A DNA stretch of 53,468 nucleotides. It comes from Solirubrobacterales bacterium. Its GTDB lineage: Bacteria > Actinomycetota > Thermoleophilia > Solirubrobacterales > Solirubrobacteraceae. The notes beneath the pieces were generated by a model, which saw only the letters and a list, made by a program, of their open reading frames with translations, did no database searches and was not told the DNA's origin. This document shows positions 5,630 to 46,972 of this stretch, piece after piece; position 1 is the stretch's first letter, and each line of letters begins with the position of its first letter. A program made the position numbers and the translations under genes. The stretch lies in assembly GCA_019241635.1 (NCBI GenBank), contig JAFAWR010000171.1, forward strand, positions 1 to 53,468, given 5' to 3'.

Positions 5630-8238
5630 GCCCGCGGTGCTCTCGCGCGCTCGAGCCGCTTTTCCAGGTGCCGCAGCTTCGTACGTGTGCGCGCCCCACG
5701 CGCGCGCTCGCGATCCAAGTCGCCGCGCAGCTCTCGCAACGCGTCGAGCACCGCTCTGTCCAGATTTCGCTCGTGAATCGTGAATGGCAGCATCATGCGC
5801 ATTGCCGCGCGCCGAATCAACCCCGTGGCGGCGCGGCGTGACGGCACACCCTGCCTGAGGTCGAGCTTCAGCTCGGTCTCGATCGCGTTGATCGCATGGG
5901 AGCGCTGCCGCCGGGGACCATCGCGCCGCAGCTCGAGGAGGGTCTCCAGCCGGGCGCGGGCGACCCGACCGGTGACCGATGGCGCGTATTGGCGTTCGAT
6001 GTCCAGACGCGCCCGGATTGCCTTCTCGGCCGCTTCGTCGCGGTGCTGCCAGACGTGGCGCATCAGCTCAGCCGCGTGGTCGAGGTCGGGCTCGGCCCAC
6101 GTTCCTTCGGCCGGATAGACCTCGGAGTCAGGTCCGACCTGCGCGCGCGTCCAATCGACGAGGTAGCTGTTGCGGTCGGTGGTGAAGTCCATGTTCCCCG
6201 AGTACCCGGTGGCGATGACCGGCGTGCCGAGCACCATCGAGTCGGCCAGCGTGAGGCCGAACCCCTCACTGCGGTGCAGAGACACGTAGCAGTCGGCTTT
6301 GGCCACCAGCGCAGCGATCTCGCGCGGTTCGAGGTAGCGCTCGGCGAGCTGGATGTCGGGCCGGCCGTCGATGCTGGCGCGCACCTTAGCGGCGGCCTCC
6401 GAACGGAATCTCTCGTTGATCGTCTTGAGCAGCAGGCGAGGCCCTTCGCCAGGAGCGAATGCGCGCTTGAACGCCTCGATTAGGCCGATCGGGTTCTTTC
6501 GCTGCAACGTACTGAAATAGTCGAACATGAACAGGAAGGTGAATTCGCCGCCGTCGATCAGGTCGATTTCCACACCGCTCGGATCGGCCACCTCGATCGC
6601 CTGCGGCACCACGACCACGGGTACGGGTGAGAGCCGGGACAGGTTGTGGGCGACGAAGTTCGAGTACACCCAGATCTCGTCGACATACTGAAACCCGGGT
6701 TGCCAGCTGGGTGGAATCACATCGGTCTCCCACCCCCAGCTCCCGATCGTGATGCGGTCACCGAGCAGCTCGCCGCCCCCGGCGTGCACGAACGCGGACA
6801 GTTGATCGCCGTTCAGGCAGACCAGGTTGAACGTCGGCTCGAACGGGGCTTGTACCTCCTCGTAGGCATGGTGACCGAACCGGGTGACCGTCTTACCGCG
6901 AGAGAGATCAACCGGAAGGTCGGGCGCCACCGCGGTGGTGGTGACCGGCACGCCCGCGCCTTCGAGCGCCTTGACGTACAGGCGTGCCGCCTCGGCGATG
7001 CCCAGCGTGTCGCGTAGGTACCCGAACACGTTCACGGTCAGGTGCGCATCGCCGGCGGACACGGACCCGTTGCCGGTCTGCGGGAGCAGATCGGCCAGCA
7101 ATCCCAGCTCCTCGCGGCCCTGCTCCCAGGCCCACGAAATCAGCCCGTCTGAGTCCGCGTCGAGATTCGGAAACGCGCTCTGGAGGTCGGCGCGGCGCTC
7201 GTATACGGCATACAGGTAACGGTTGAGGCCGGCGGCGGCTCCCTGCGGGGCGGGCTCGCGCAGCCAGCTCGTGAACGCCGCGGTGGCCAGCGAGGAAGAC
7301 TGATCTCCGAGGCCGACACCGGCCAGGTTCGCCTCGGTCCACAGCGCGCTCAGGAGCGGGTCGGTCGGCACTCCGTTCGAGAGGCGCTGATAGCCGTTGA
7401 GGCGATCGGGCTCGGGCGCGCGCCAGCCGGACGCGCGCACCCGCTCGGCGTATTCGCCGCACACCTCGGCCAGCACGGTGTCATCGACCGGAGTGACCCG
7501 GGTGGCGACGTCACTTAGCACGTACGGACGATCCGGGCGAAAGCCTGAGAAGTCGATGAACCGCAGCGGATGACCCCCTGCGGCCAGGCCGTCTCCGCGG
7601 CGCTCGAGCGGTCGCTCGTGCAGATTCCAGAAGCTCACGCCCGACCCCGGATCCTCCAGCCAGGCGGCCGTGGGAAACACGGAGGGCGCCATCCCGAGCC
7701 ACCGGGCCGGCGAACCGGCGCGAGCGATGCCGCGGCCCCACCAGCGCGCGAACCGAGCACCCTCCGATCCGTTCGTGGCCACGAACGCCGGGTTCACCTC
7801 GCCAGCGACCAGCAGGTCCGCGTGGTCGGGACGCTTCCCATCCTCGGGAAGTCGCGTCACCCTGCGTAGGAGCGCCACGCTGTGCTCGCGGGCCAGCGCG
7901 AGCGCCGGTTCGAGCGTCCCGTACACGCAGATCTGCGGGGCCAGGTAAACCGCGGTGTCGGCGCCGCTTCCGTGGGCCCATAGGAGCAGTCGCGCCGGCA
8001 GCGTCTCGGGATTCGCCGTGAGCGGATAGCCGCCCTCGCCGTCGTCCGCGTTCGCGTCCTCGACGTTCAGCTCCTCGGGTTTCAGCGCCTCGAATTCGTC
8101 GCGTGCCGCGAGCTGGCCGTGGCCGCCGAAGACGCACACCGCCACCTGTGCACCGGGATCGTGCGCGCGGAGGGTCGCCGCCAGCACCCGGGCCTGGGCC
8201 AGCGTTTCCGGGGTCGCGTACGTGCAAAAGCGGACCAT
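5626..8238 (-). CDS. Two-domain glycosyltransferase: N-terminal GT-A-like domain plus C-terminal GT4 domain
   Basis: This protein of about 870 residues carries two glycosyltransferase-like halves. Residues 1 to about 270 (RFCTYATPETLAQARVLAAT... FIDFSGF) look like a nucleotide-sugar transferase-type alpha/beta domain. From about residue 400 a GT4 enzyme begins with VNVFGYLRDTLGIAEAAR and carries SEGFGLTLADSMVLGTPVIA; the second Glu of the EX7E motif is Asp here. The C-terminal 80 residues are Arg/Glu-rich and helical. ATG at 8238 gives the natural domain start MVRFCTYA; an in-frame ATG at 8256, three bases after the upstream stop, would add six residues. It may add two sugars in sequence; acceptor unknown. 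Confidence 0.8.
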   Translation of the reverse strand: MVRFCTYATPETLAQARVLAATLRAHDPGAQVAVCVFGGHGQLAARDEFEALKPEELNVEDANADDGEGGYPLTANPETLPARLLLWAHGSGADTAVYLAPQICVYGTLEPALALAREHSVALLRRVTRLPEDGKRPDHADLLVAGEVNPAFVATNGSEGARFARWWGRGIARAGSPARWLGMAPSVFPTAAWLEDPGSGVSFWNLHERPLERRGDGLAAGGHPLRFIDFSGFRPDRPYVLSDVATRVTPVDDTVLAEVCGEYAERVRASGWRAPEPDRLNGYQRLSNGVPTDPLLSALWTEANLAGVGLGDQSSSLATAAFTSWLREPAPQGAAAGLNRYLYAVYERRADLQSAFPNLDADSDGLISWAWEQGREELGLLADLLPQTGNGSVSAGDAHLTVNVFGYLRDTLGIAEAARLYVKALEGAGVPVTTTAVAPDLPVDLSRGKTVTRFGHHAYEEVQAPFEPTFNLVCLNGDQLSAFVHAGGGELLGDRITIGSWGWETDVIPPSWQPGFQYVDEIWVYSNFVAHNLSRLSPVPVVVVPQAIEVADPSGVEIDLIDGGEFTFLFMFDYFSTLQRKNPIGLIEAFKRAFAPGEGPRLLLKTINERFRSEAAAKVRASIDGRPDIQLAERYLEPREIAALVAKADCYVSLHRSEGFGLTLADSMVLGTPVIATGYSGNMDFTTDRNSYLVDWTRAQVGPDSEVYPAEGTWAEPDLDHAAELMRHVWQHRDEAAEKAIRARLDIERQYAPSVTGRVARARLETLLELRRDGPRRQRSHAINAIETELKLDLRQGVPSRRAATGLIRRAAMRMMLPFTIHERNLDRAVLDALRELRGDLDRERARGARTRTKLRHLEKRLERARAPRA

Positions 8239-8258
8239 CGGGCCATCGTGCCACATAG

Positions 8259-9437
8259 CTATCGGTCGAGTCCGTCGAGCAGAACGGCGCAGACGCGCTC
8301 CCAGGTCACCTCGGTCGCTCGGTCACGAGCCCGCTCGCCCATCGTCTTCGCCAGCGCGGGATCGCGGTGGAGGGTGGCCATGGCCCGGGCGATCGCGTCG
8401 GGGTTGGGATCGGTGATCAGCCCGGTCTGGCCATCGGTCACGAGCTCGCTTGCCCCGCCGGAATCGGTCGCGGTGACGACCGGTTTGGCCGCCCGCATCG
8501 CCTCGAGCGTGACCAGACCGAAGTCCTCCTCAAAGGGCACGAACAGCACGGCGCGAGCGTCGGCGTAGAGATCCAGGAGAGCGTCGTCTCCGACGAAACC
8601 CAGGAACCGGATCCTCGGGTCCGACCCGGCGAGTTCGCGCAGGCGGCCTCCGTCCGGGCCGGTGCCGGCGATGCGGAGCTCCGCGTCCGCGCCCAGCTGC
8701 TTGGTCGCCTCGATCAGCAGGTCGATGCGCTTCGGCGCGTCGAGACGACTCACGGTGAAGAAGTAGGCACCCTCGCGCGGGGGATGAAACACCGACAGGT
8801 TCGGCGCCGGATGCACGGCGGTCACCTCGGCCCCCGGCGGGAAATAGCCAGGGCGACTGGCCACCGACTCGGAGATCGCGGCAAACCGGCGCACCGAGCT
8901 CATGCCGATCCGGTCGCAGAAGTGGACGATCTCCCGGATCAGGGGTCCGGGGAACGCGTACGCGTCACCCGGCACCGGAAGGCCCAAACGGCGCCGGCGG
9001 CCGCGACCGGTCAGGCGGCCGACGCGCGCGAAGCATTCGGCCAGCGCGTCCCGGCTCTGATCACTTCCCCGGAGCAGTCCGAGCAGCGCCCGGATCTCGG
9101 GATGCCGGGTTTCGTACTCGGGCGGGAGGTGCCGGGGGTAGGTGTCATAGAGACCCCGCAGCGGGTGCAGCATGTAGCAGACGTGATTCGGATGGTCGGT
9201 CATCCAGCCCGGATACTTGCTCGAGATGACCAGCTCGTAGTTACGCAGATCGAGTTCCGAGAACCGTCTGTAGCTGTCCACCACCTCGACGAAGTTCCGC
9301 TCGGCCCCAGGCAGCTTGATGATGTCCGCCACGTGTGGCGTGTTGCGGTTGAGGTGGTCGAGCAGGCCTGACCACAGGCGCTCGGCGCCGCCGATGACCA
9401 GGGGGACCGGGCACGGGGCAACGATGATGATCTCCAC
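8259..9437 (-). CDS. Glycosyltransferase family 4
   Basis: The protein has 392 residues in a GT-B arrangement. The N-terminus IIIVAPCPVPLVIGGAERLW holds the glycine-rich acceptor loop; the C-terminal domain has FFTVSRLDAPKRIDLLIEA and a complete EX7E motif (EEDFGLVTLEAM), followed by SGGASELV and TGLI. These are standard retaining GT4 donor-site features. The start is GTG at 9437. It is the first gene of the minus-strand run and is divergent from the Wzt gene across a 67-base promoter region. It likely adds a hexose during assembly of the exported glycan. Confidence 0.88.
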   Translation of the reverse strand: MEIIIVAPCPVPLVIGGAERLWSGLLDHLNRNTPHVADIIKLPGAERNFVEVVDSYRRFSELDLRNYELVISSKYPGWMTDHPNHVCYMLHPLRGLYDTYPRHLPPEYETRHPEIRALLGLLRGSDQSRDALAECFARVGRLTGRGRRRRLGLPVPGDAYAFPGPLIREIVHFCDRIGMSSVRRFAAISESVASRPGYFPPGAEVTAVHPAPNLSVFHPPREGAYFFTVSRLDAPKRIDLLIEATKQLGADAELRIAGTGPDGGRLRELAGSDPRIRFLGFVGDDALLDLYADARAVLFVPFEEDFGLVTLEAMRAAKPVVTATDSGGASELVTDGQTGLITDPNPDAIARAMATLHRDPALAKTMGERARDRATEVTWERVCAVLLDGLDR

Positions 9438-38238: not shown

Positions 38239-38736
38239 CTAGCGACGATGGCGCAGGCGCTTGATTGCCTCGAGCTCCTCGATGTCGATCAGGTCCTTGG
38301 CCCGTCCAGCCGCCTGCTTCATGGCGATCAGGTCGTCGATCGAAGCGACCGACACATTGAAGCCGCCCAGGTCATAGCGGTCGGCGTTTCTCCGCAGGTC
38401 CGGATAGGCCGGCGCGCCGGGGGGCCGGGCGAGCACATCGAGCTCACCGAGCGTGGTGGTGAGCGTCAGGAGCTCGACCTGGCGCAGCGTGCGCGCGTCG
38501 GCTACGAACGGAACGTCCTCAGCGACGCCTTTCAATCGAGCGCCGAGCGCGGTCAAGACATCACCCAGCGCGGCCAGGTTGGCGTCATCGGACGCGAAGC
38601 AGATGTCCAGGTCGAAGGTGTTGCGGGCCGAGCCGTGGAGAACGCCGGCGATGCCGCCGATGACCACGAAGTCGACACCACGCTCGACGAGCCGCCGGAG
38701 AATCTCATCGGCGCTCAGTGGGGGCCGGTCAGTCAT
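38239..38736 (-). CDS. Nucleotidyltransferase-fold protein, probable toxin of a toxin-antitoxin pair
   Basis: The protein has 165 residues. LVERGVDFVVIGGIAGVLHGSARNTFDLDICF holds the GG...(R/T)xDLDI pattern of the MNT/AbiEii-type nucleotidyltransferase fold (Gly-Gly then D-x-D). DLGGFNVSVASIDDLIAMKQAAGRAKDLIDIEEL at the C-terminus is shared by DUF6036/AbiEii-like proteins. Members can transfer nucleotides to tRNA or to partner proteins. Its start overlaps by 8 bases the end of an Xre-type gene, the usual order of antitoxin followed by toxin. Toxicity is inferred from this arrangement. Confidence 0.78.
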   Translation of the reverse strand: MTDRPPLSADEILRRLVERGVDFVVIGGIAGVLHGSARNTFDLDICFASDDANLAALGDVLTALGARLKGVAEDVPFVADARTLRQVELLTLTTTLGELDVLARPPGAPAYPDLRRNADRYDLGGFNVSVASIDDLIAMKQAAGRAKDLIDIEELEAIKRLRHRR

Positions 38737-39058
38737 CGACGCGCCGTGCGCGTCGCGTCATCGCTCCGAGGTTGCGGCTCGACGCGGTGAAGTTGGCCAG
38801 ACGCTCTGCGGGGGTCAGAGCCAGCCGCTCACGCAGTTGCCCCTCGTCGAACGACGCGCGATGCGGTTCGGCGGCTAGCGCCAGCCGGTGGCCCGTGGCG
38901 GCGATCACGTTCGCGAGCGTGGCGATCGTGGGGTTCGAGTCGCCGCGCTCGAGCCGGGCGATGGCCGACTGGGACAGCCCGGCGCGATGCGCAAGCTCGG
39001 CCTGAGTGAGGCCGGCACCGGTACGGGAGTCGCGGATCAGGAACGCTGCCGATGACAT
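38729..39058 (-). CDS. Xre-type helix-turn-helix protein, probable antitoxin
   Basis: The protein has 109 residues. Its HTH occupies residues 8-60: RDSRTGAGLTQAELAHRAGLSQSAIARLERGDSNPTIATL, followed by ANVIAATGHRLALAAEP, the standard Xre layout. The C-terminal 45 residues (LRERLALTPAERLANFTASSRNLG) are often found in HTH partners of nucleotidyltransferase toxins. ATG 39058 comes 6 bases after a TATATT -10 box. It probably represses its own promoter through the inverted repeat at 39064-39082. Confidence 0.85.
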   Translation of the reverse strand: MSSAAFLIRDSRTGAGLTQAELAHRAGLSQSAIARLERGDSNPTIATLANVIAATGHRLALAAEPHRASFDEGQLRERLALTPAERLANFTASSRNLGAMTRRARRVDD

Positions 39059-39170: not shown

Positions 39171-39186
39171 TATGCTGCCGCCGGTG
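39171..39186 (+). promoter_or_regulatory. -10 box with probable leaderless GTG start of the EPSPS-like gene
   Basis: TATGCT (39171-39176) is followed by 7 bases and GTG at 39184. The ATG at 39172 lies inside the -10 box and so is unlikely to be used. With the GTG start the protein numbering matches E. coli EPSP synthase at Lys22 and Arg27. No good -35 box was seen. Confidence 0.5.
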
Positions 39187-40545
39187 CGCCTGCTGGTAGC
39201 CAAGGCCCAGGCCCCGCTCGTAGGGGAGCTGACGATCCCGCCGTCCAAGTACCATGCCCACCGGGCGCTGATGCTGGCCGCGCTGGCCGACGGCGAGTCG
39301 CTGATCACCCAGCGCACGAGCGCTCGCCACGTCACCTTCACCGTGCAGGCGCTCCGCGCGCTGGGCGCGCAGATCGAGTCCGCCGGCGACGGATGGCGGG
39401 TGAGAGGCGGGGCCGGCACGTTCTCGCCGCAGACCGACGAGGTGTCGGTGGGGAGCTCGGGGACCACCCTGTACTTCCTGCTCGGGCTGGCTGCGCTCGG
39501 CGACCGGCCGGTGCGGATCGTCGGCCAGCGCTACTTCCGCCGGCGCCCGATCGGGCCGCTCCTGCGCGCGCTCAAGCGAATGGGCGTGCGCCTGGAGTAC
39601 GAGGGGCAGCATCTGCCGGTGACCGTGTATCCCGGCCGGCCCACCGGCGGCCGGATCCGCATCGACGGCACGCTGTCGCAATGGATCTCGGGCCTGCTGA
39701 TGCTCGCGCCGTACTGCACCGAGCCGACCACGATCGAGGTGCGCGGGGAGCTCAACGAGCGGCCCTACCTCGAGCTGACCCTCGAGATGATGCGCGAGTT
39801 CGGCCTCGAGGTCACCGCACGCGAGGACTGGCGTGAGTTCTACGTGCCGCCCGACCAGTGCCCGACCGCCACGCGCGCCACCCTCCCGGCCGATCTCGGC
39901 TCGGCGATGTTCGGCCTGGCGGCGTGCACCCTTCACCCGTCGAAGGTGACCTTCCGCAGCCCCACGCCGATCGCCGGCCACCCCGAGGCCGCCGTGCTCG
40001 ACAACCTGATGGCCGCCGGCGTCCCCTTCCGGATCGCCGCCGATGAGCACTCGATCTCGATGGACCACGACGGCACCCCTCCGGAGGGCGGCCCGCTCGA
40101 CTGCCGCGACATCCCCGACATGGTCCCGATCCTCTCGGTGCTGGCCGCTCGCGCCAGCGGTCGCAGCGCGCTCGGCCACGTCGCCCACGTGCGCCTCAAG
40201 GAGTCAGACCGCGTCGCCTCGATGCTCCAGCTGCGCAAGATGGGGGCCCGGATCGAGTTCGACGGCAACGACATGACCTTCGAGGGCGTCGCGCAGTTGA
40301 ACGGCGCGGAGCTGTCCTCGTTCAACGACCATCGCGTGCTGATGGCGCTGGCCGTGGCCGGGTCGACCGCCAGCGGCGTGACCGAGCTCTCCTATCCGCA
40401 CGCCTACCGGATCTCCTATCCCGAGTTCCTCGACCACATGAACTCCCTGGGGGTGCCCGCCGCGGTGTCGAGCGGCGTACCGGATCTGGGGGGCCGCTTC
40501 GCGGCATCCCTGGGGCCGGGTGCCCCGTCCGGTCAGGACGCGTGA
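39184..40545 (+). CDS. EPSP-synthase (3-phosphoshikimate 1-carboxyvinyltransferase) family protein, probably a divergent paralogue
   Basis: The protein has 453 residues with the two-domain EPSP-synthase fold. Residues for PEP and catalysis are mostly kept: Lys22 and Arg27 (PPSKYHAHR), GSSGTT, the RRRPIGPLL arginine, SQ (TLSQWISG), Asp in DIPDMVP, LKESDR and NDHR. Several shikimate-site residues are changed: Ser23 is Tyr, the Asn of NSGT/NAGT is Ser, the usual Arg after GTA is lost, and the C-terminal Lys (KTFPD-type) is Ile (RISYPEF). A role outside aromatic amino acid synthesis is therefore likely. It is first in an operon with a CoA ligase, acyl-CoA dehydrogenase and SDR, as in cyclohexanecarboxyl-CoA synthesis from shikimate. 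A true AroA cannot be excluded. Confidence 0.82.
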   Translation: MRLLVAKAQAPLVGELTIPPSKYHAHRALMLAALADGESLITQRTSARHVTFTVQALRALGAQIESAGDGWRVRGGAGTFSPQTDEVSVGSSGTTLYFLLGLAALGDRPVRIVGQRYFRRRPIGPLLRALKRMGVRLEYEGQHLPVTVYPGRPTGGRIRIDGTLSQWISGLLMLAPYCTEPTTIEVRGELNERPYLELTLEMMREFGLEVTAREDWREFYVPPDQCPTATRATLPADLGSAMFGLAACTLHPSKVTFRSPTPIAGHPEAAVLDNLMAAGVPFRIAADEHSISMDHDGTPPEGGPLDCRDIPDMVPILSVLAARASGRSALGHVAHVRLKESDRVASMLQLRKMGARIEFDGNDMTFEGVAQLNGAELSSFNDHRVLMALAVAGSTASGVTELSYPHAYRISYPEFLDHMNSLGVPAAVSSGVPDLGGRFAASLGPGAPSGQDA

Positions 40546-42071
40546 TGATCATCGAAGACGTCGCCCGGCACGCCCGCGAGCGGCCGGACGAGCGCGCCGT
40601 CGTCGCGGTGGCTGCGGACGGCGGCGTCCGGGAGCTCACCTGGAGCGAGCTGCACCGCGAGGCCGAGCGCGTGGCCAATGCGCTGATCGGGTTGGGCGTC
40701 CGGCCCGGCGAGAACGTCGCCTTCCAGCTCCCCAACCGGCTCGAGTTCGTGACCATCGCGCTCGGCACGCTGCTCGCCGGAGCGGTGTGTGAGCCGCTGA
40801 TGCCGATCTTCCGCGAGCGCGAGCTCTCGTTCATGCTCGGTGAGAGCCGCGCCCGGGTGCTGTTCGTGCCGGACATGTTCCGCGGTCGAGACCACAGCGC
40901 GATCGCCGCCGCGGTCCGGCCCTCGCTGCCCGAGCTCGAGCACGTGATCGTGCTGCCCACCGGCTACGGCGAGCTGCTCGACTCGGCCGGCCCCGCCGCG
41001 AAGCGCGCGGTCGCGCCCGATCAGCTCGCGCAGCTGCTCTTCACCTCGGGCACCTCGGGCGAGCCCAAGGGCGCGCTGCACCGCCACGACGTGCTGACGC
41101 GCGCGGCCGATCACCACATCGAGCATTTCGGCCTCGGCGCCGACGACGTGATCTACGTGCCCTCGCCGCTCGCCCACCAGACCGGCTTTCTCTACGGGAT
41201 GTGGATCGCGCTGCGCCTGGGCGTGCCGCAGATCCTCCAGGAGGCCTGGGACGCCGACACGGGACTCGACGCGATGCGCCGCTTCGGCGTGACCTTCGTG
41301 CAGGCTGCCACCCCGTTCCTGGCCGACCTGACCGGGGTGGCCGAGGAACGCGGCGAGGCACCCGAACAGCTGCGCACGTTCGTGGCCACCGGGGCGGCGA
41401 TCCCCCGCGAGCTGGCCCGCCGCGCCCGCGAGGTCCTCGGGGCCGAGGTGGGCGGCGCCTGGGGCACGACCGAGAGCTGCCTGGGCTGCGCGTTCGCGCC
41501 CGGCGACCCACCCGAGCGGGCCTGGGGGACCGACGGGCGGGCGCTGCGCAATGTCCGCCTGCGGATCGTCGACGACGCCGGCCACGAGCTCGCCGCCGGC
41601 CAGGAGGGCAACTTCGAAGTCCACACCGACTGCCTGTTCCAGGGCTATCTGAACCGCCCGGAGCTGACCGCCGAGGCGCTCACCGCCGACGGCTTCTACC
41701 GGACCGGGGACCTGGCCCGGATCGACTCAAGCGGCTACGTCCGCATCACCGGACGGGTCAAGGACGTGATCAACCGGGGCGGCGAGAAGGTGCCGGTGGC
41801 CGAGATCGAGCAGCTCCTGCACGCCCATCCCGCGGTGTCCGACGTGGCGATCGTGGCCATGCCCGACGAGCGCCTGGGCGAACGAGCCTGCGCGTTCGTG
41901 GTTGGCGAGCTGGACTTCGAGACGATGCTCGAGTACCTAGACTGCCATCGCGTTTCCAAGACCTATTGGCCCGAGCGTCTTGAGCTGGTCGAGTCCCTTC
42001 CGCGGACGCCGTCGGGCAAGGTCCAGAAGTTCATGCTGCGCGACCAGGCCCGCGAGCTCGTGACCACGTGA
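40542..42071 (+). CDS. Acyl/carboxylate-CoA ligase (AMP-dependent synthetase, ANL superfamily)
   Basis: The protein has 509 residues. P-loop-like LLFTSGTSGEPKGALHRH, the adenylate motif GGAWGTTES, hinge region YRTGDLARIDSSGYVRITGRVKDVINRGGEKV and catalytic Lys in PRTPSGKVQKFML are complete. Such enzymes activate a carboxylate as acyl-AMP and then as CoA thioester; relatives are often annotated cyclohexanecarboxylate-CoA ligase. GTG 40542 overlaps the upstream TGA (ATG 40545 is the alternative). In this operon it could load a shikimate-derived cyclohexene carboxylate onto CoA. Fatty acids are the alternative substrate. Confidence 0.88.
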   Translation: MMIIEDVARHARERPDERAVVAVAADGGVRELTWSELHREAERVANALIGLGVRPGENVAFQLPNRLEFVTIALGTLLAGAVCEPLMPIFRERELSFMLGESRARVLFVPDMFRGRDHSAIAAAVRPSLPELEHVIVLPTGYGELLDSAGPAAKRAVAPDQLAQLLFTSGTSGEPKGALHRHDVLTRAADHHIEHFGLGADDVIYVPSPLAHQTGFLYGMWIALRLGVPQILQEAWDADTGLDAMRRFGVTFVQAATPFLADLTGVAEERGEAPEQLRTFVATGAAIPRELARRAREVLGAEVGGAWGTTESCLGCAFAPGDPPERAWGTDGRALRNVRLRIVDDAGHELAAGQEGNFEVHTDCLFQGYLNRPELTAEALTADGFYRTGDLARIDSSGYVRITGRVKDVINRGGEKVPVAEIEQLLHAHPAVSDVAIVAMPDERLGERACAFVVGELDFETMLEYLDCHRVSKTYWPERLELVESLPRTPSGKVQKFMLRDQARELVTT

Positions 42072-43207
42072 CCACCGCCACTCCAGTCGACTTCGATGCC
42101 CTGCGCGCCGAGGTGCGCGAATACGTCGAGAACGAGGGCGAGCGCTGGGCCGAGCTGATCGAGCGCGAGCACCGCGTGCCGCTCGAGCTGTGGGACGAGC
42201 TGCGCGACCGCGGCTTCCTGCGCCTGGCCGCGCCCGCCGATTACGGCGGCGCGGGCATGCAGTTCACGCGCTACCTCGAGCTGCTCGAGCTGTTCTCGAT
42301 GTCGCACGCCTCGCTGCGGATGATCGTCCACGTCGCCAACGGCATCTGGCGCCCGATGGATTCCCACGCCAACGACGACCAGCGGGCGCGCTTCATCAAG
42401 CCGGCGGTGGCCGGCGAGATCAAGGTCGCGTTCACGCTGACCGAGCCTGGCGCGGGCAGCGGCGCCGACATCCGGTGCAGCGTCGTGCGCGAGGGCGACA
42501 CGTACTACCTGAGCGGCGAGAAGCACCTGATCACGTTCGGGACGATCGCCGACTACCTGATGACCTTCGCGCGGGTGCAGGGCACTCGCGGGACCGACGG
42601 CACGGTCGCACTGATGGTCCCCTCCCACGGCGAGGGGATCGACAACCGCGAGATGGCCGGGACGATGGGCGTCCGGGGCACCGACCACGGCCACATCGTT
42701 TTCGACCGCGCCCCGGTCCCGGTGGCCGACCGCTTCGGCGAGGAGGGTCAGGGCGTCGAGATCGCCTTGAGTGGCTTCCTCGGCCCGAGCCGGATCTCGC
42801 TGGCCACCACCTGCGTCGGCCTGGCCCAGCGCGCCCTAGATCTGGCCCTCGACTATGCCCAGCGGCGCGAGACGTTCGGCAAGAAGATCGCCGAGCGCCA
42901 GGCCATCGCGTTCAAGCTGGCCGAGATGGCCACCGACCTCGAGGCCGCCCGGCGCCTGGTCCGGCACGCCGCCTCGACCTGGGAGCAGACCGGCCACGCC
43001 CCGATGGAAGCCGCGATGGCCAAGCTGTTCGCCTCCGAGATGCTCCAGCGCGTCACCGACGGCGCCCTGCAGGTCCACGGCGGCCTTGGGTACTGGGAGA
43101 CCAGCCCGATCGAGCGCGTGTACCGTGATGCCCGCGCCCAGCGCTTCGAGGAGGGCACGGCGGAGATCCAGAAGACCACGATCGCGAGGGACCTGTTCAA
43201 GCGATGA
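42068..43207 (+). CDS. Acyl-CoA dehydrogenase family protein
   Basis: The protein has 379 residues, the normal length for this flavoenzyme family. FTLTEPGAGSGADIRC and YYLSGEKHLITFGTIADYLMTFAR are the FAD-binding strands; YAQRRETFGKKIAERQAIAFKLAEM and VHGGLGYWETSPIERVYRDAR follow; the catalytic Glu is in FEEGTAEIQKTTIARDLF. It would oxidise or, in reverse, reduce a CoA-bound ring or acyl chain. GTG 42068 overlaps the ligase TGA (GTGA), and its own stop overlaps the next ATG. In the proposed pathway it acts on cyclohexene- or cyclohexadiene-carboxyl-CoA. Confidence 0.92.
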   Translation: MTTATPVDFDALRAEVREYVENEGERWAELIEREHRVPLELWDELRDRGFLRLAAPADYGGAGMQFTRYLELLELFSMSHASLRMIVHVANGIWRPMDSHANDDQRARFIKPAVAGEIKVAFTLTEPGAGSGADIRCSVVREGDTYYLSGEKHLITFGTIADYLMTFARVQGTRGTDGTVALMVPSHGEGIDNREMAGTMGVRGTDHGHIVFDRAPVPVADRFGEEGQGVEIALSGFLGPSRISLATTCVGLAQRALDLALDYAQRRETFGKKIAERQAIAFKLAEMATDLEAARRLVRHAASTWEQTGHAPMEAAMAKLFASEMLQRVTDGALQVHGGLGYWETSPIERVYRDARAQRFEEGTAEIQKTTIARDLFKR

Positions 43208-44058
43208 GCGACCCACTTCTTCCTGACCCCCGGGCCGGCTTTGAGGGCAAGGTCGCGCTGATCACCGGCGCCTCGCGCGGGATCGGCAAGGCGCTCGCGC
43301 TCCGGCTGGCCGCCCGCGGCACCCAGGTCGTCGTGAACTACAAGCAGAATGAGGAGCTGGCCCGCGAGGTGGTGAGCGAGGTCGAGCGCCTCGGATCATC
43401 CGGGCTCGCCGTCCGGGCCGACCTCGAGAGCCTCGAGCAGATCGAGGCCATGTTCGACCAGGTGCAGGAACGCTTCGGCCGCGTGGACTTCTTCGTCTCG
43501 AACGCCTCGGCCTCGAACTTCCACCACTTCATGGATCTGAAGCCCCACCACCTGGAGCGCACCTTCAACCTCAACGTGCGCGCGTTCGTGGTCGGGACCC
43601 AGCGCGCCGTGCGGCTGATGCCCGATGGCGGCCGGGTCGTGGTCCTATCCAGCTACGGGAGCATCCGCTCGTTCCCCACCTACGCCAACCTCGGCTCGGC
43701 CAAGGCATCGATCGAGACCTGGGCGCGCTACATGGCGGTCGAGCTCGCCCCTCGCGGCGTCAACGTCAACGCGGTCAACGGCGGGATCATCGAGACCGAC
43801 TCCTCGAGCTACTTCTATGCCACCGGCCGTGTCTCCTCGCTCGAGACCGTGCTGCCGAAGATCCCCAAGCGCCGGATGGGCACCGCCGTCGAGGTGGCCG
43901 AGTGCGTGCTGTTCCTCCTCTCCCCAGGTGCGGAGTACGTGACCGGCACCACCCTGCTCGTCGACGGCGGCCTGACCGCCATCGCCCCGCCCTTCCACGC
44001 CGACATGGCGGGCGAATCCGGCGCCCTGGACGCGCTGTCGGAGGCCCTCCGCTTCTAG
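43204..44058 (+). CDS. SDR-family enoyl reductase, FabL/ChcA-like
   Basis: The protein has 284 residues. NAD(P) motif TGASRGIG near residue 24 follows KVALI; NASASNFHHFMDL takes the place of NNAG; the catalytic part is SSYGSIRSFPTYANLGSAKASIE. The downstream segment VNAVNGGIIETDSSSYF and GRMGTAVEVAECVLFLLSPGAEYVTGTTLLVDGG resembles the enoyl-ACP reductase FabL and 1-cyclohexenylcarbonyl-CoA reductase ChcA more than ketoreductases. ChcA reduces double bonds in the ring on the way to cyclohexanecarboxyl-CoA. The C-terminal 25 residues extend beyond the core. ATG 43204 overlaps the upstream stop (ATGA), and the gene ends 8 bases before a strong hairpin. Confidence 0.85.
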   Translation: MSDPLLPDPRAGFEGKVALITGASRGIGKALALRLAARGTQVVVNYKQNEELAREVVSEVERLGSSGLAVRADLESLEQIEAMFDQVQERFGRVDFFVSNASASNFHHFMDLKPHHLERTFNLNVRAFVVGTQRAVRLMPDGGRVVVLSSYGSIRSFPTYANLGSAKASIETWARYMAVELAPRGVNVNAVNGGIIETDSSSYFYATGRVSSLETVLPKIPKRRMGTAVEVAECVLFLLSPGAEYVTGTTLLVDGGLTAIAPPFHADMAGESGALDALSEALRF

Positions 44059-44066
44059 CCGCGCCC

Positions 44067-44115
44067 GGCCGATGGCGATGCAGCTACGCATATGACAGCT
44101 GCTTCGCCATCGGCC
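44067..44115 (+). terminator. Strong terminator hairpin after the four-gene operon
   Basis: GGCCGATGGCGA pairs with TCGCCATCGGCC (12 bp), then after a T-T mismatch GCAGCT pairs with AGCTGC, leaving an 11-base loop. There is no T-run afterwards, common for terminators in GC-rich actinobacteria. It separates the operon from the arabinofuranosidase promoter. Confidence 0.7.
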
Positions 44116-44138
44116 GCCCTGCCGCCGCAAATTTAGGT

Positions 44139-44230: not shown

Positions 44231-46972
44231 ATGCAGATCCGCATGCCCACGCGGCTGTTCACCAGCGCCGCGCGGTGGCTACTTGCGACAGCGCTCCTGG
44301 CGGGAGCGTCCATGCTCGCGAGCGGGGTGGCCCAGGCACGACCCGCGCAGGTTGGCGCCGCCGCCCAGCCGGCTGCCCTCAGCGGCCACTGGACCTTCGA
44401 CGAGGGGAGCGGCACAACCGCGGCCGACAGCTCCGGCGGCGACCATCCGCTCACGCTGACCAACGGCGCGGGCTGGGGGCCCGGCCTGATCGGCCCGCAC
44501 TCACTGTCTCTGAACGGCAACGGGCAGTACGCGCAGGCGGCGGGCCCGGTCATCGACACCACGCAGAGCTTCAGCGTGTCGGCCTGGGTCAACCTGTCGA
44601 ACACCAACGGCTACCAGACCTTCGTCAGCCAGGACGGCACCAACGTGAGCGGCTTCTACCTCCAGCTGCGCGGCGACACCCACCGCTTCGTTTTCACCCG
44701 GATCGCCTACGACTCGACCCAGGCGCTCGGGATCATCGCCTCGGCCGACTCGATCATCCCCCAGCCCGGCGTCTGGTACCACCTCACCGGCGTCTACGAC
44801 GCGCAGTCGCAGACGATCTCGCTGTACGTCAACGGGACGCTCCAGCAGACCCAGTCGTTCGTGCCCAACTGGAGCGCGGGCGGCGCGCTGGCCGTCGGCC
44901 GCTCGCTGTATGGCGGAAACCACGTCGACTTCGTCTCCGGGCTGATTGACGACGTGCGCACCTATTCCGGCGTCCTCACCGCCGGTCAGGTCGCGGCGCT
45001 GGCCGGCCCGGGCCGCCTCACCGTGGACGCCGCCCAGCCCGGCGCCACGATCAACCCGACCCAATTCGGCGAGTTCCTCGAGGAGATCAACCACTCCGCC
45101 GACGGCGGCCTTTATGCCGAGCTGATCCGCAACCGCGACCTCAAGGAGGACCCGAGCCAGCCTGTGGCCTATTCGCCCGTCGCCGACGGGGGCGCCCAGG
45201 CCGCGATGAGCCTCGACAGCACTCAGCCCCTGAACTCCGCCAACCCGGTCAGCCTCAGGCTCCAGATCACCAAGCTGCCCGCCGGCGGGCGAGCCGGCGT
45301 GGCCAACGCCGGTTACTGGGGGATTCCGGTGCGCCCGGACACGACGTATCGCGTCTCGCTGTTCGCCAGGAGCGCGGCCGCGACCAGCGCCCCGCTGACC
45401 GTCGATCTCGAGAGCACCTCGGGACACGTCTGGGCGAGCGCGCCGGTCGGCCCGGTAAGCACGACCTGGAAGCAGTACCAGGTCACCCTGCACACCCCCG
45501 CGTGGATCCCGGCCACGCTGACCAACCGCTTCGTGGTCTCCACGTCCGACCCCGCGGCGGCCGGACAGACCTTCTGGCTGACCTTCGTATCGCTGTTCCC
45601 GCCCACCTACGACAACCTGGCGAACGGGTTCCGCGTCGACCTGATGGAGAAGCTCGCCGCGCTCCGCCCCGGGTACCTGCGCGTCCCCGGGGGCAACTAC
45701 CTCGAGGGCGAGACGATCGCCACCCGGTTTGACTGGAGCACGACGATCGCCCCGGTGCAGAACCGCCCCGGCCACTTCGACAGCGCGTGGGGCTACTGGT
45801 CCCAGGATGGGATGGGCCTGCTCGAGTACCTCGAGCTCGCCGAGGAGCTCCACGCCCAGCCGGTGCTCGCGGTGTGGGCGGGCTACACGCTGAACGGCAC
45901 CGTCGTGCCGCAGAGCCAGCTCGCGCCCTACGTGCAGTCGGCGCTCGACGAGATCCAGTACGCGATCGGCCCGACCACCACCCCGTTCGGCGCCATGCGC
46001 GCCGCCGACGGACACCCGGCCCCGTTCGACCTGAGGATGGTCGAGATCGGCAACGAGGACTTCTTCGACTCGACCGGGAGCTACAACGCCTACCGCTACC
46101 CGATGTTCTACGACGCGATCAAGGCGGCCTACCCGCAGCTCAAGCTGATCGCCACCACCACCGTGACCAGCCGGCCGATGGACGTCATCGACGAGCACTT
46201 CTACAACAACGACCCGAACTACTTCGCCGAGAACGCCCACCTGTTCGATGGCGTCAGCCGCACCGGGCCCAAGGTGCTGGTCGGCGAGTACGCCACCACC
46301 CAGGGCGTGCCGACCGGAACCCTGGCCGGAGCGCTGGGCGAGTCGGCCTTCCTCACCGGCGTCGAGCGAAACGCGGATCTCGTGCTGGGGGCGTCCTACG
46401 CGCCGCTGCTGGTCAACGTCAATGCGCCGAGCTGGCCGACCAACCTGATCGGCTACGACGCGCTGCACAGCTACGGCTCACCGTCGTACTGGGCACAGCG
46501 GATGCTCTCCGCCGGTCACGGGACCCAGGTGATCGGCTCCCAGCTCGTCGCCGGCGCCGGAACGCTGTTCGTGGTGAGCAGCCGGTCGGCCGGCCACACG
46601 TACCTCGACGTCGTCAACGACGGATCCACGGCGGCTCGCACCGAGATCTCGCTGGTCGGTGAGGGCGGCGCGACCCGCGGGGTCGCCACCGTCCTCACCG
46701 GCGATCCAGCGGCGATGAACTCCCTGAGCGACCCACGTGCCGTCGCACCGCGATCGCACCCGCTGTTCGGGCTCGGCAGCACGTTCTCCTACACGTTCGC
46801 GCCGAACTCGGTGACCGTGCTCGACCTCGGCACCGCCGCTGGGACGGAGTCCGCCGCCCCGCTGGCCATTCCCGCACAGTCGCGGGCGCGCCTCCCGCGC
46901 CCCGGCAGCGCCGGCGCGCTCAAGCCGGTCGGCGGCCGCGGACACCGGCGCCGCCACCGCGGAAGGTCGTAG
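44231..46972 (+). CDS. Secreted LamG-GH51 alpha-L-arabinofuranosidase
   Basis: The protein has 913 residues; GGAGGAG at 44219-44225 sets the ATG. A signal peptide (LLATALLAGASMLASGVAQA) is followed by a concanavalin-like LamG domain (about 48-255: SGHWTFDEGSGTTAADSSGG, FSVSAWVN, LIDDVRTYSGVLTAGQVAAL), which usually binds carbohydrate. From about 262 a GH51 domain begins with INPTQFGEFLEEINHSADGG; the acid/base Glu609 is in VEIGNED and the nucleophile Glu686 in VLVGEYAT. The C-terminus is Pro/Arg-rich (RGHRRRHRGRS). It would release L-arabinofuranose from plant arabinan, arabinoxylan or arabinogalactan outside the cell. The LacI-type operator upstream suggests induction by the sugar. Confidence 0.9.
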   Translation: MQIRMPTRLFTSAARWLLATALLAGASMLASGVAQARPAQVGAAAQPAALSGHWTFDEGSGTTAADSSGGDHPLTLTNGAGWGPGLIGPHSLSLNGNGQYAQAAGPVIDTTQSFSVSAWVNLSNTNGYQTFVSQDGTNVSGFYLQLRGDTHRFVFTRIAYDSTQALGIIASADSIIPQPGVWYHLTGVYDAQSQTISLYVNGTLQQTQSFVPNWSAGGALAVGRSLYGGNHVDFVSGLIDDVRTYSGVLTAGQVAALAGPGRLTVDAAQPGATINPTQFGEFLEEINHSADGGLYAELIRNRDLKEDPSQPVAYSPVADGGAQAAMSLDSTQPLNSANPVSLRLQITKLPAGGRAGVANAGYWGIPVRPDTTYRVSLFARSAAATSAPLTVDLESTSGHVWASAPVGPVSTTWKQYQVTLHTPAWIPATLTNRFVVSTSDPAAAGQTFWLTFVSLFPPTYDNLANGFRVDLMEKLAALRPGYLRVPGGNYLEGETIATRFDWSTTIAPVQNRPGHFDSAWGYWSQDGMGLLEYLELAEELHAQPVLAVWAGYTLNGTVVPQSQLAPYVQSALDEIQYAIGPTTTPFGAMRAADGHPAPFDLRMVEIGNEDFFDSTGSYNAYRYPMFYDAIKAAYPQLKLIATTTVTSRPMDVIDEHFYNNDPNYFAENAHLFDGVSRTGPKVLVGEYATTQGVPTGTLAGALGESAFLTGVERNADLVLGASYAPLLVNVNAPSWPTNLIGYDALHSYGSPSYWAQRMLSAGHGTQVIGSQLVAGAGTLFVVSSRSAGHTYLDVVNDGSTAARTEISLVGEGGATRGVATVLTGDPAAMNSLSDPRAVAPRSHPLFGLGSTFSYTFAPNSVTVLDLGTAAGTESAAPLAIPAQSRARLPRPGSAGALKPVGGRGHRRRHRGRS

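Follow-up and report, generated by a model that had tools for sequence, protein, structure and literature searches.

The 53,468-nucleotide window analyzed here (contig JAFAWR010000171.1, C376 in our numbering) belongs to a Solirubrobacterales genome of 4.42 Mb in 394 contigs, which is 75% complete. On its plus strand, positions 39184 to 44058 hold a compact four-gene operon. The first gene (39184 to 40545) encodes a paralogue of 5-enolpyruvylshikimate-3-phosphate synthase (EPSPS; PF00275, 267 bits), hereafter called the EPSPS-like protein. It is followed by genes for an AMP-forming CoA ligase (40542 to 42071; AMP-binding domain PF00501, 257 bits), a flavoprotein of the acyl-CoA dehydrogenase (ACAD) family (42068 to 43207; PF00441, PF02770, and PF02771, covering the N, middle, and C domains), and a ChcA/FabL-like short-chain dehydrogenase/reductase (SDR) of the enoyl-thioester reductase type (43204 to 44058; adh_short_C2 PF13561, 207 bits). 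A 4-base overlap is present at all three junctions, and the G+C content at third codon positions is 0.93 to 0.95 in all four frames, which supports each of them as a gene. The open reading frame calls, overlaps, and Pfam matches agree with the original prediction, made from the letters of this DNA, that four overlapping genes of these families lie here. The EPSPS-like frame has two possible starts, 39172 (ATG) and 39184 (GTG), both ending at 40545; the latter looks preferable, because three homologues from the same genus (L033, L034, and L037) begin at that residue. The predicted closing terminator was borne out in part: a long, strong hairpin lies 3' of the operon at 44066 to 44116 on the plus strand (111-nucleotide stretch, -55.1 kcal/mol, z -4.2, with 0 of 200 shuffles that low), but the sequence 3' of it (CCCUGCCGCC) contains no U-run.

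The EPSPS-like protein resembles the EPSP synthase AroA in fold family and in model score, exceeding the cut-off of the TIGR01356 aroA model (307.3 versus 287.25 bits). It is not the only such protein of the genome, which was one of the two conditions that together would have overturned the original prediction. Pieces of canonical aroA, adjoining genes read by eye as tyrA and cmk, were found on contigs C383 (302 bits, truncated by the contig end) and C284 (154 bits); they may represent one gene or two and share 29 to 31% identity with the window protein. Likewise, all eight named genomes probed encode the paralogue plus a separate relative at 28 to 32% identity. A plasmid search with the EPSPS-like protein gave matches at 27.6 to 31.9% identity in the best 15 of 24 records.

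For a tree, 140 hidden Markov model matches were reduced to 125 sequences of at least 340 residues and, by removal of near-duplicates, to 72. The 36 EPSPS-like proteins encoded in cassettes like that of the window were separated from all other sequences by a branch supported at 100/99. A long-branch warning applied to 17 rows, and without them the branch still had an SH-like approximate likelihood ratio (SH-aLRT) of 100. In E. coli numbering, five AroA active-site positions are changed in this clade: S23 is Y in 35 of 36 sequences (one gap), R100 is Y or Q, S169 is missing, S197 is E, and K411 is I, the last four in 36 of 36. By contrast, the 36 other rows, which were not individually confirmed as AroA and in which annotated E. 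coli AroA stood in for the E. coli copy in L103, keep these residues in 36, 36, 35, 28, and 35 cases, respectively. The cassette proteins retain R124, Q171, D313, E341, R344, and R386 in 36 of 36 and K22 and R27 in 35 (one gap); N94, N336, and K340 have little diagnostic value, since they are variable outside the cassette clade as well. In AroA, S23, S169, and S197 contact shikimate 3-phosphate, and K411 contacts phosphoenolpyruvate. Since residues contacting both substrates are changed, the enzyme is probably no longer an EPSP maker. That the gene simply encodes an additional, ordinary EPSP synthase and has unrelated acyl-CoA genes as neighbors would agree with the passed aroA cut-off, but it would leave unexplained the changes at R100 and K411 throughout a clade whose relatives keep them, the linkage to the ligase across phyla, and the presence of canonical aroA in addition; we consider it extremely improbable.

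A tree of the ligases placed 44 cassette members, those of Kitasatospora mediocidica and Alicyclobacillus acidocaldarius among them, on a single branch (SH-aLRT 100), separate from five relatives at 39 to 43% identity and from the second ligases. This is the inner branch of the 49 rows labeled by score as cassette_s400, which include five non-cassette ligases. The outgroups were the 39 to 43% relatives, the second ligases, and nonribosomal peptide synthetase (NRPS) domains, rather than a curated beta-oxidation set. The SDR carries the motif Y-x6-K, common to all 26 cassette SDRs, while Y-x3-K is seen in 17 and Y-x6-K in 5 of the 22 other SDRs collected. Relative to these outgroups and by this motif, a grouping of the two proteins with fatty acid beta-oxidation enzymes, which would have spoken against the predicted pathway, was not found. 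A PDB search with the SDR of locus L107 at 1e-60 returned nothing informative. When the L107 DNA was compared with plasmids, eight records gave matches of about tRNA length, and Rfam places a tRNA at that spot.

The genus of the window also includes Conexibacter sp. S30A1 (G011, NZ_CP097127.1), DBS9H8 (G015, NZ_CP097128.1), and metagenome-assembled genomes (MAGs) titled Solirubrobacterales. The EPSPS-like protein is present in 16 of its 28 genomes, own included, the others being 69 to 87% identical; the remaining 33 relatives searched reached at most 34% identity. In a sample of 396 genomes of the phylum, four besides our own had matches at 49 to 50%, and the rest were at or below 36%. The gene was found in 3 of 398 Bacilli genomes, query genome counted, and in 5 of 41 Alicyclobacillaceae, the family of genome G682. 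A scan of genome contigs, which requires one of two exact clade-specific peptide patterns and can overlook relatives, as it did the Alicyclobacillaceae copies, detected 29 loci. These belong to Solirubrobacterales and Actinomycetes MAGs, Conexibacter, Lentzea, Segeticoccus, K. mediocidica, and Streptomyces sp. G-G2, and further to an "Actinobacteria" record, a Rubrobacteraceae MAG, a Chloroflexi-labeled contig, Pullulanibacillus, Scopulibacillus, and Paenibacillus.

The ligase gene follows the EPSPS-like gene in 13 of 14 distant loci checked, and in all six Lentzea, Segeticoccus, Kitasatospora, and Streptomyces loci tested the two share one open frame. Because the order EPSPS-ligase-dehydrogenase recurs in Actinomycetota, Bacillota, and a Chloroflexi-labeled contig, the arrangement is not due to chance. 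Downstream, the loci differ in their reductases, the SDR and a FadH-type flavin reductase. The order EPSPS-ligase-ACAD-SDR-FadH is found in Lentzea (L087, L089, and L091), Streptomyces (L093), and the same-genus loci L027 and L032; FadH precedes the SDR in Pullulanibacillus (L097 and L098), Scopulibacillus (L100), Paenibacillus (L101), and L109. In all five EPSPS-bearing Alicyclobacillaceae, FadH-SDR is divergent from EPSPS-ligase-ACAD. The SDR without FadH in the stretch covered is found in K. mediocidica (L090), L094, L095, and the window, and FadH without the SDR in six same-genus loci, S30A1 among them. Several stretches are short: L088 ends inside the ligase, L096 inside the ACAD, and the same-genus loci L024, L025, L029, and L035, likewise L031 and L038, before or near the reductase position. 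The idea that FadH replaces the SDR in sister species was dropped, as L027 and L032 carry both genes. Since such same-genus loci exist, the simpler view is a set of five genes from which members were later lost or relocated.

Some of these loci have further peculiarities. In Streptomyces sp. G-G2 (L093:8986-13143), the EPSPS-like, ligase, and ACAD parts lie in a single uninterrupted frame of 1381 codons. In Lentzea L092, the EPSPS-like gene stands alone next to an NRPS-rich stretch. Next to the EPSPS-like genes of Lentzea L089, L091, and L092 lie a gene for a TauD-type dioxygenase and a large gene cluster. In L089, the large gene that was scanned encodes an NRPS, and CHC- or shikimate-derived peptides are possible (CHC, cyclohexanecarboxyl).

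An EPSPS-like paralogue distinct from canonical aroA marks the cassettes found here, and we take such a gene to have a place in the published CHC-CoA sets. The gene set for the CHC-CoA of ansatrienin was reportedly first described by Cropp et al. in 2000. For phoslactomycin/lactomycin, a table in PMC5852498 gives the order plmJK (AMP-dependent synthetase and ligase), plmL (acyl-CoA dehydrogenase), ChcA (cyclohexenylcarbonyl-CoA reductase), and plmM (NADH:FMN oxidoreductase), and six genes for CHC-CoA are mentioned in the accompanying text. Compared with this table, the window has the same order of ligase, ACAD, and reductase genes and fits plmJK-plmL-chcA-plmM minus the last gene. The likeness is one of gene order, not of compared sequences, and unlike the window operon the plm set lies inside a polyketide cluster and ends with the NADH:FMN oxidoreductase. 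Because EPSPS and ligase are fused in one frame in the six homologous loci, which agrees with the published name plmJK, we infer that plmJK may be an EPSPS-ligase fusion. Use of the CHC-CoA cassette in a Streptomyces avermitilis bkd mutant is cited in PMC4581413.

K. mediocidica possesses orthologues of all four window genes in the same order (54.6, 57.3, 60.9, and 59.6% identical). In contrast to the window, EPSPS and ligase share an open frame there, and genes for a beta-ketoacyl-ACP synthase III (KAS III), an acyl carrier protein (ACP), an acyltransferase, and a 5-aminolevulinate synthase lie near the cassette. Specifically, two KAS III genes and an ACP gene directly precede it, with an arylamine-acyltransferase-like gene before those, and the 5-aminolevulinate synthase gene (539 versus 338.55 bits), flanked by two AMP-binding ligase-like genes, is located about 11 kb from the EPSPS-like gene. 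This ligase/synthase/ligase arrangement resembles the C5N triad of manumycin-type clusters as described in PMC4525017; to judge by this likeness, the cassette is located in a manumycin-type cluster. According to PMC4147253, the upper chain of asukamycin A1, a member of the manumycin family, begins with CHC-CoA, which in the producer also yields omega-cyclohexyl fatty acids (3.1% of the total).

A second kind of CHC user is found among the Alicyclobacillaceae, 24 of 41 of which encode an orthologue of the cassette ligase (59 to 72% identical to that of G682, other ligases being at most 43% identical). The carriers include A. acidocaldarius DSM 446 (G518) and A. acidoterrestris DSM 3922 (G762), for which PMC5023266 lists omega-cyclohexane fatty acids. 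The comparison with Alicyclobacillus proposed in the original prediction gave identities of 48, 54, and 39% between the ligase, ACAD, and SDR of A. acidocaldarius and those of the window. It also revealed what had not been foreseen: our expectation of an EPSPS-like gene in A. acidocaldarius failed on genome search. Unlike the window, both species have two divergent gene pairs, with FadH and a 3-deoxy-D-arabino-heptulosonate 7-phosphate (DAHP) synthase, SDR-FadH being divergent from ligase-ACAD-DAHP synthase. The DAHP synthase gene adjoins the ACAD gene in 8 of 10 Alicyclobacillaceae loci examined (exceptions, L144 and L164), and all four DAHP synthases tested scored above the TIGR01361 cut-off. 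This adjacency ties the Alicyclobacillaceae cassette directly to the shikimate pathway. In the window, DAHP synthase had no match at an E value of 1e-3, and none adjoins the operon.

Beside the cassette, all five EPSPS-less Alicyclobacillaceae loci examined (L161, L163, L164, L165, and L166) have genes for a further ligase, another ACAD, and a zinc alcohol dehydrogenase. They perhaps serve another route to the ring or its hydroxyl chemistry. However, the same set is present in the EPSPS-bearing Scopulibacillus locus L100, and part of it in L142, and because Scopulibacillus has these genes too, we conclude nothing from them. In A. acidocaldarius (L140, approximately 6318 to 9118), a MurA-type gene read by eye is interrupted: about 2.8 kb separates its two parts, and a recombinase-like gene lies in the gap; the same gene is split in G569.

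Because gene order, orthology, and context agree in two kinds of known CHC users, they support the predicted CHC-CoA-type pathway. The original prediction is largely right, and the window operon is a stand-alone member of a known cassette. The operon would turn shikimate into CHC-CoA. The EPSPS-like protein would take shikimate or a derivative and help to eliminate a ring substituent, and the ligase would join CoA to the acid. The ACAD-type flavoprotein and the ChcA-like SDR would carry out the redox chemistry of the ring double bonds, with the SDR reducing cyclohexenyl-CoA intermediates. CHC-CoA would then most likely prime ordinary fatty acid synthesis and give rise to omega-cyclohexyl membrane lipids. 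Taken alone, it is very likely that the product is CHC-CoA or a very close alicyclic acyl-CoA; together with its use in lipids, we consider this likely.

Several points weigh against this reading, and they concern the model scores, the reductases, the EPSPS-like gene, and the fate of the product. The ligase, SDR, and ACAD all scored under the cut-offs of their best NCBIfam models: the ligase reached 490.4 bits with cyclohexanecarboxylate-CoA ligase (TIGR03208; cut-off, 792.3), the SDR 255.8 bits with FabL (NF005975; cut-off, 328), and the ACAD 272 bits with acryloyl-CoA reductase (cut-off, 640). As the ligase model and some ACAD models come from cyclohexanecarboxylate degradation, the operon could be a ring-degrading one of the bad/ali kind, which activates and oxidizes cyclohexanecarboxylate. 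This is very unlikely: every curated cut-off was missed, an EPSPS paralogue has no place in a degradative route, and the cassette is accompanied by DAHP synthase in Alicyclobacillaceae, while Kitasatospora carries it within an antibiotic-type cluster.

With respect to the reductases, FadH had no match in the 53-kb window (E value, 1e-3; the rest of the genome was not searched), and the DBS9H8 locus (L037) carries neither SDR nor FadH. If FadH is missing, shikimate might be used in a pathway that stops at or diverts to another alicyclic acyl-CoA (cyclohexene-, hydroxy-, or dihydroxycyclohexane-carboxyl-CoA), and it is in line with this that L027 and L032 do have FadH and that reductase content differs between loci of the same genus. 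On the other hand, the K. mediocidica set also has no cassette-type FadH within the surrounding 78 kb (the one partial match, at 33.5%, lies about 28 kb away), four f20 loci examined are without FadH in the stretches covered, and the gene may sit elsewhere in the genome. We therefore regard a diverted product as unlikely; for the CHC-CoA pathway, the FadH-type reductase could be encoded elsewhere, replaced, or dispensable.

As for the EPSPS-like gene, A. acidocaldarius has none (one canonical aroA was found, and two other matches were taken as MurA), nor does A. acidoterrestris at a limit of E 1e-65. Only 5 of the 24 Alicyclobacillaceae with the ligase orthologue carry it, the other 19 having none, and the table in PMC5852498 names no EPSPS among the CHC genes. 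Since A. acidocaldarius and A. acidoterrestris are without such a gene, it is not needed everywhere. The chances seem evenly divided that a branch of EPSP synthase turned into an eliminating enzyme which diverts shikimate itself from the aromatic pathway into an alicyclic acyl-CoA for membrane lipids of a Solirubrobacterales genus, while these two classical omega-cyclohexyl species combine the remainder of the cassette with a different first-step enzyme.

Regarding the fate of the product, KAS III, ACP, and ketosynthase queries had no match in the window at an E value of 1e-3, consistent with the claim that no polyketide synthase (PKS) is nearby. In our own genome, which is 75% complete and was not searched as a whole for FabH, NRPS, or type III PKS genes, ketosynthase (PF00109) gave two strong matches (frames of 415 and 488 amino acids) and one weak match. 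S30A1 showed two strong (603 and 426 amino acids) and two weak matches, and DBS9H8 three strong (503, 511, and 435 amino acids) and two weak ones, one of the weak matches lying in a frame of 868 amino acids. These two complete same-genus genomes thus have no strong ketosynthase match in a PKS-sized frame; FabH, NRPS, and type III PKS were not searched there. As no modular PKS is evident, fatty acid priming is the simplest use of the product, and we consider a lipid sink reasonably likely. CHC-CoA could alternatively be made for an unrecognized secondary metabolite, as the manumycin-type cluster of K. mediocidica contains the same cassette and two Lentzea species have NRPS genes next to theirs. 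Against this stand the window, with its lack of KAS III, ACP, and ketosynthase matches, and the two complete genomes, within the scope of the search just given; this use, too, seems unlikely, marginally more so than a diverted product.

The surroundings of the operon include heme synthesis genes, an arabinofuranosidase gene, MoaC, and a siroheme-type gene, as well as genes read by eye as cytochrome c maturation genes. The alpha-L-arabinofuranosidase gene (44231 to 46972, plus strand), whose product has a laminin-G-like domain, starts 172 bases 3' of the operon. On the other side, at 38239 to 39058 on the minus strand, a helix-turn-helix gene (PF01381) overlaps a nucleotidyltransferase-like gene (weak AbiEii/DUF6036 matches) in a toxin-antitoxin-like layout divergent from the operon. 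An ARAGORN tRNA call with a four-base anticodon at 38875 to 38952, antisense within the helix-turn-helix gene, is probably a false positive.

Omega-cyclohexyl lipids were described in the 1970s, and we know of no alicyclic lipids in the lineage of the window. In the portions of the open-access literature consulted, no gene set assigned to such lipids outside antibiotic clusters was found. A standard NCBIfam model would call this EPSPS-fold enzyme aroA despite its rebuilt substrate site. A question posed by the cassette is how its initial step proceeds with and without an EPSPS-like enzyme, and the division of the 24 Alicyclobacillaceae into 5 with and 19 without the gene makes the role of the EPSPS-like protein testable by comparison. 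The loci of A. acidocaldarius, A. acidoterrestris, and Solirubrobacterales are direct targets for knockout and feeding experiments, and our reading predicts that alicyclic lipids would be present in the Solirubrobacterales lineage.

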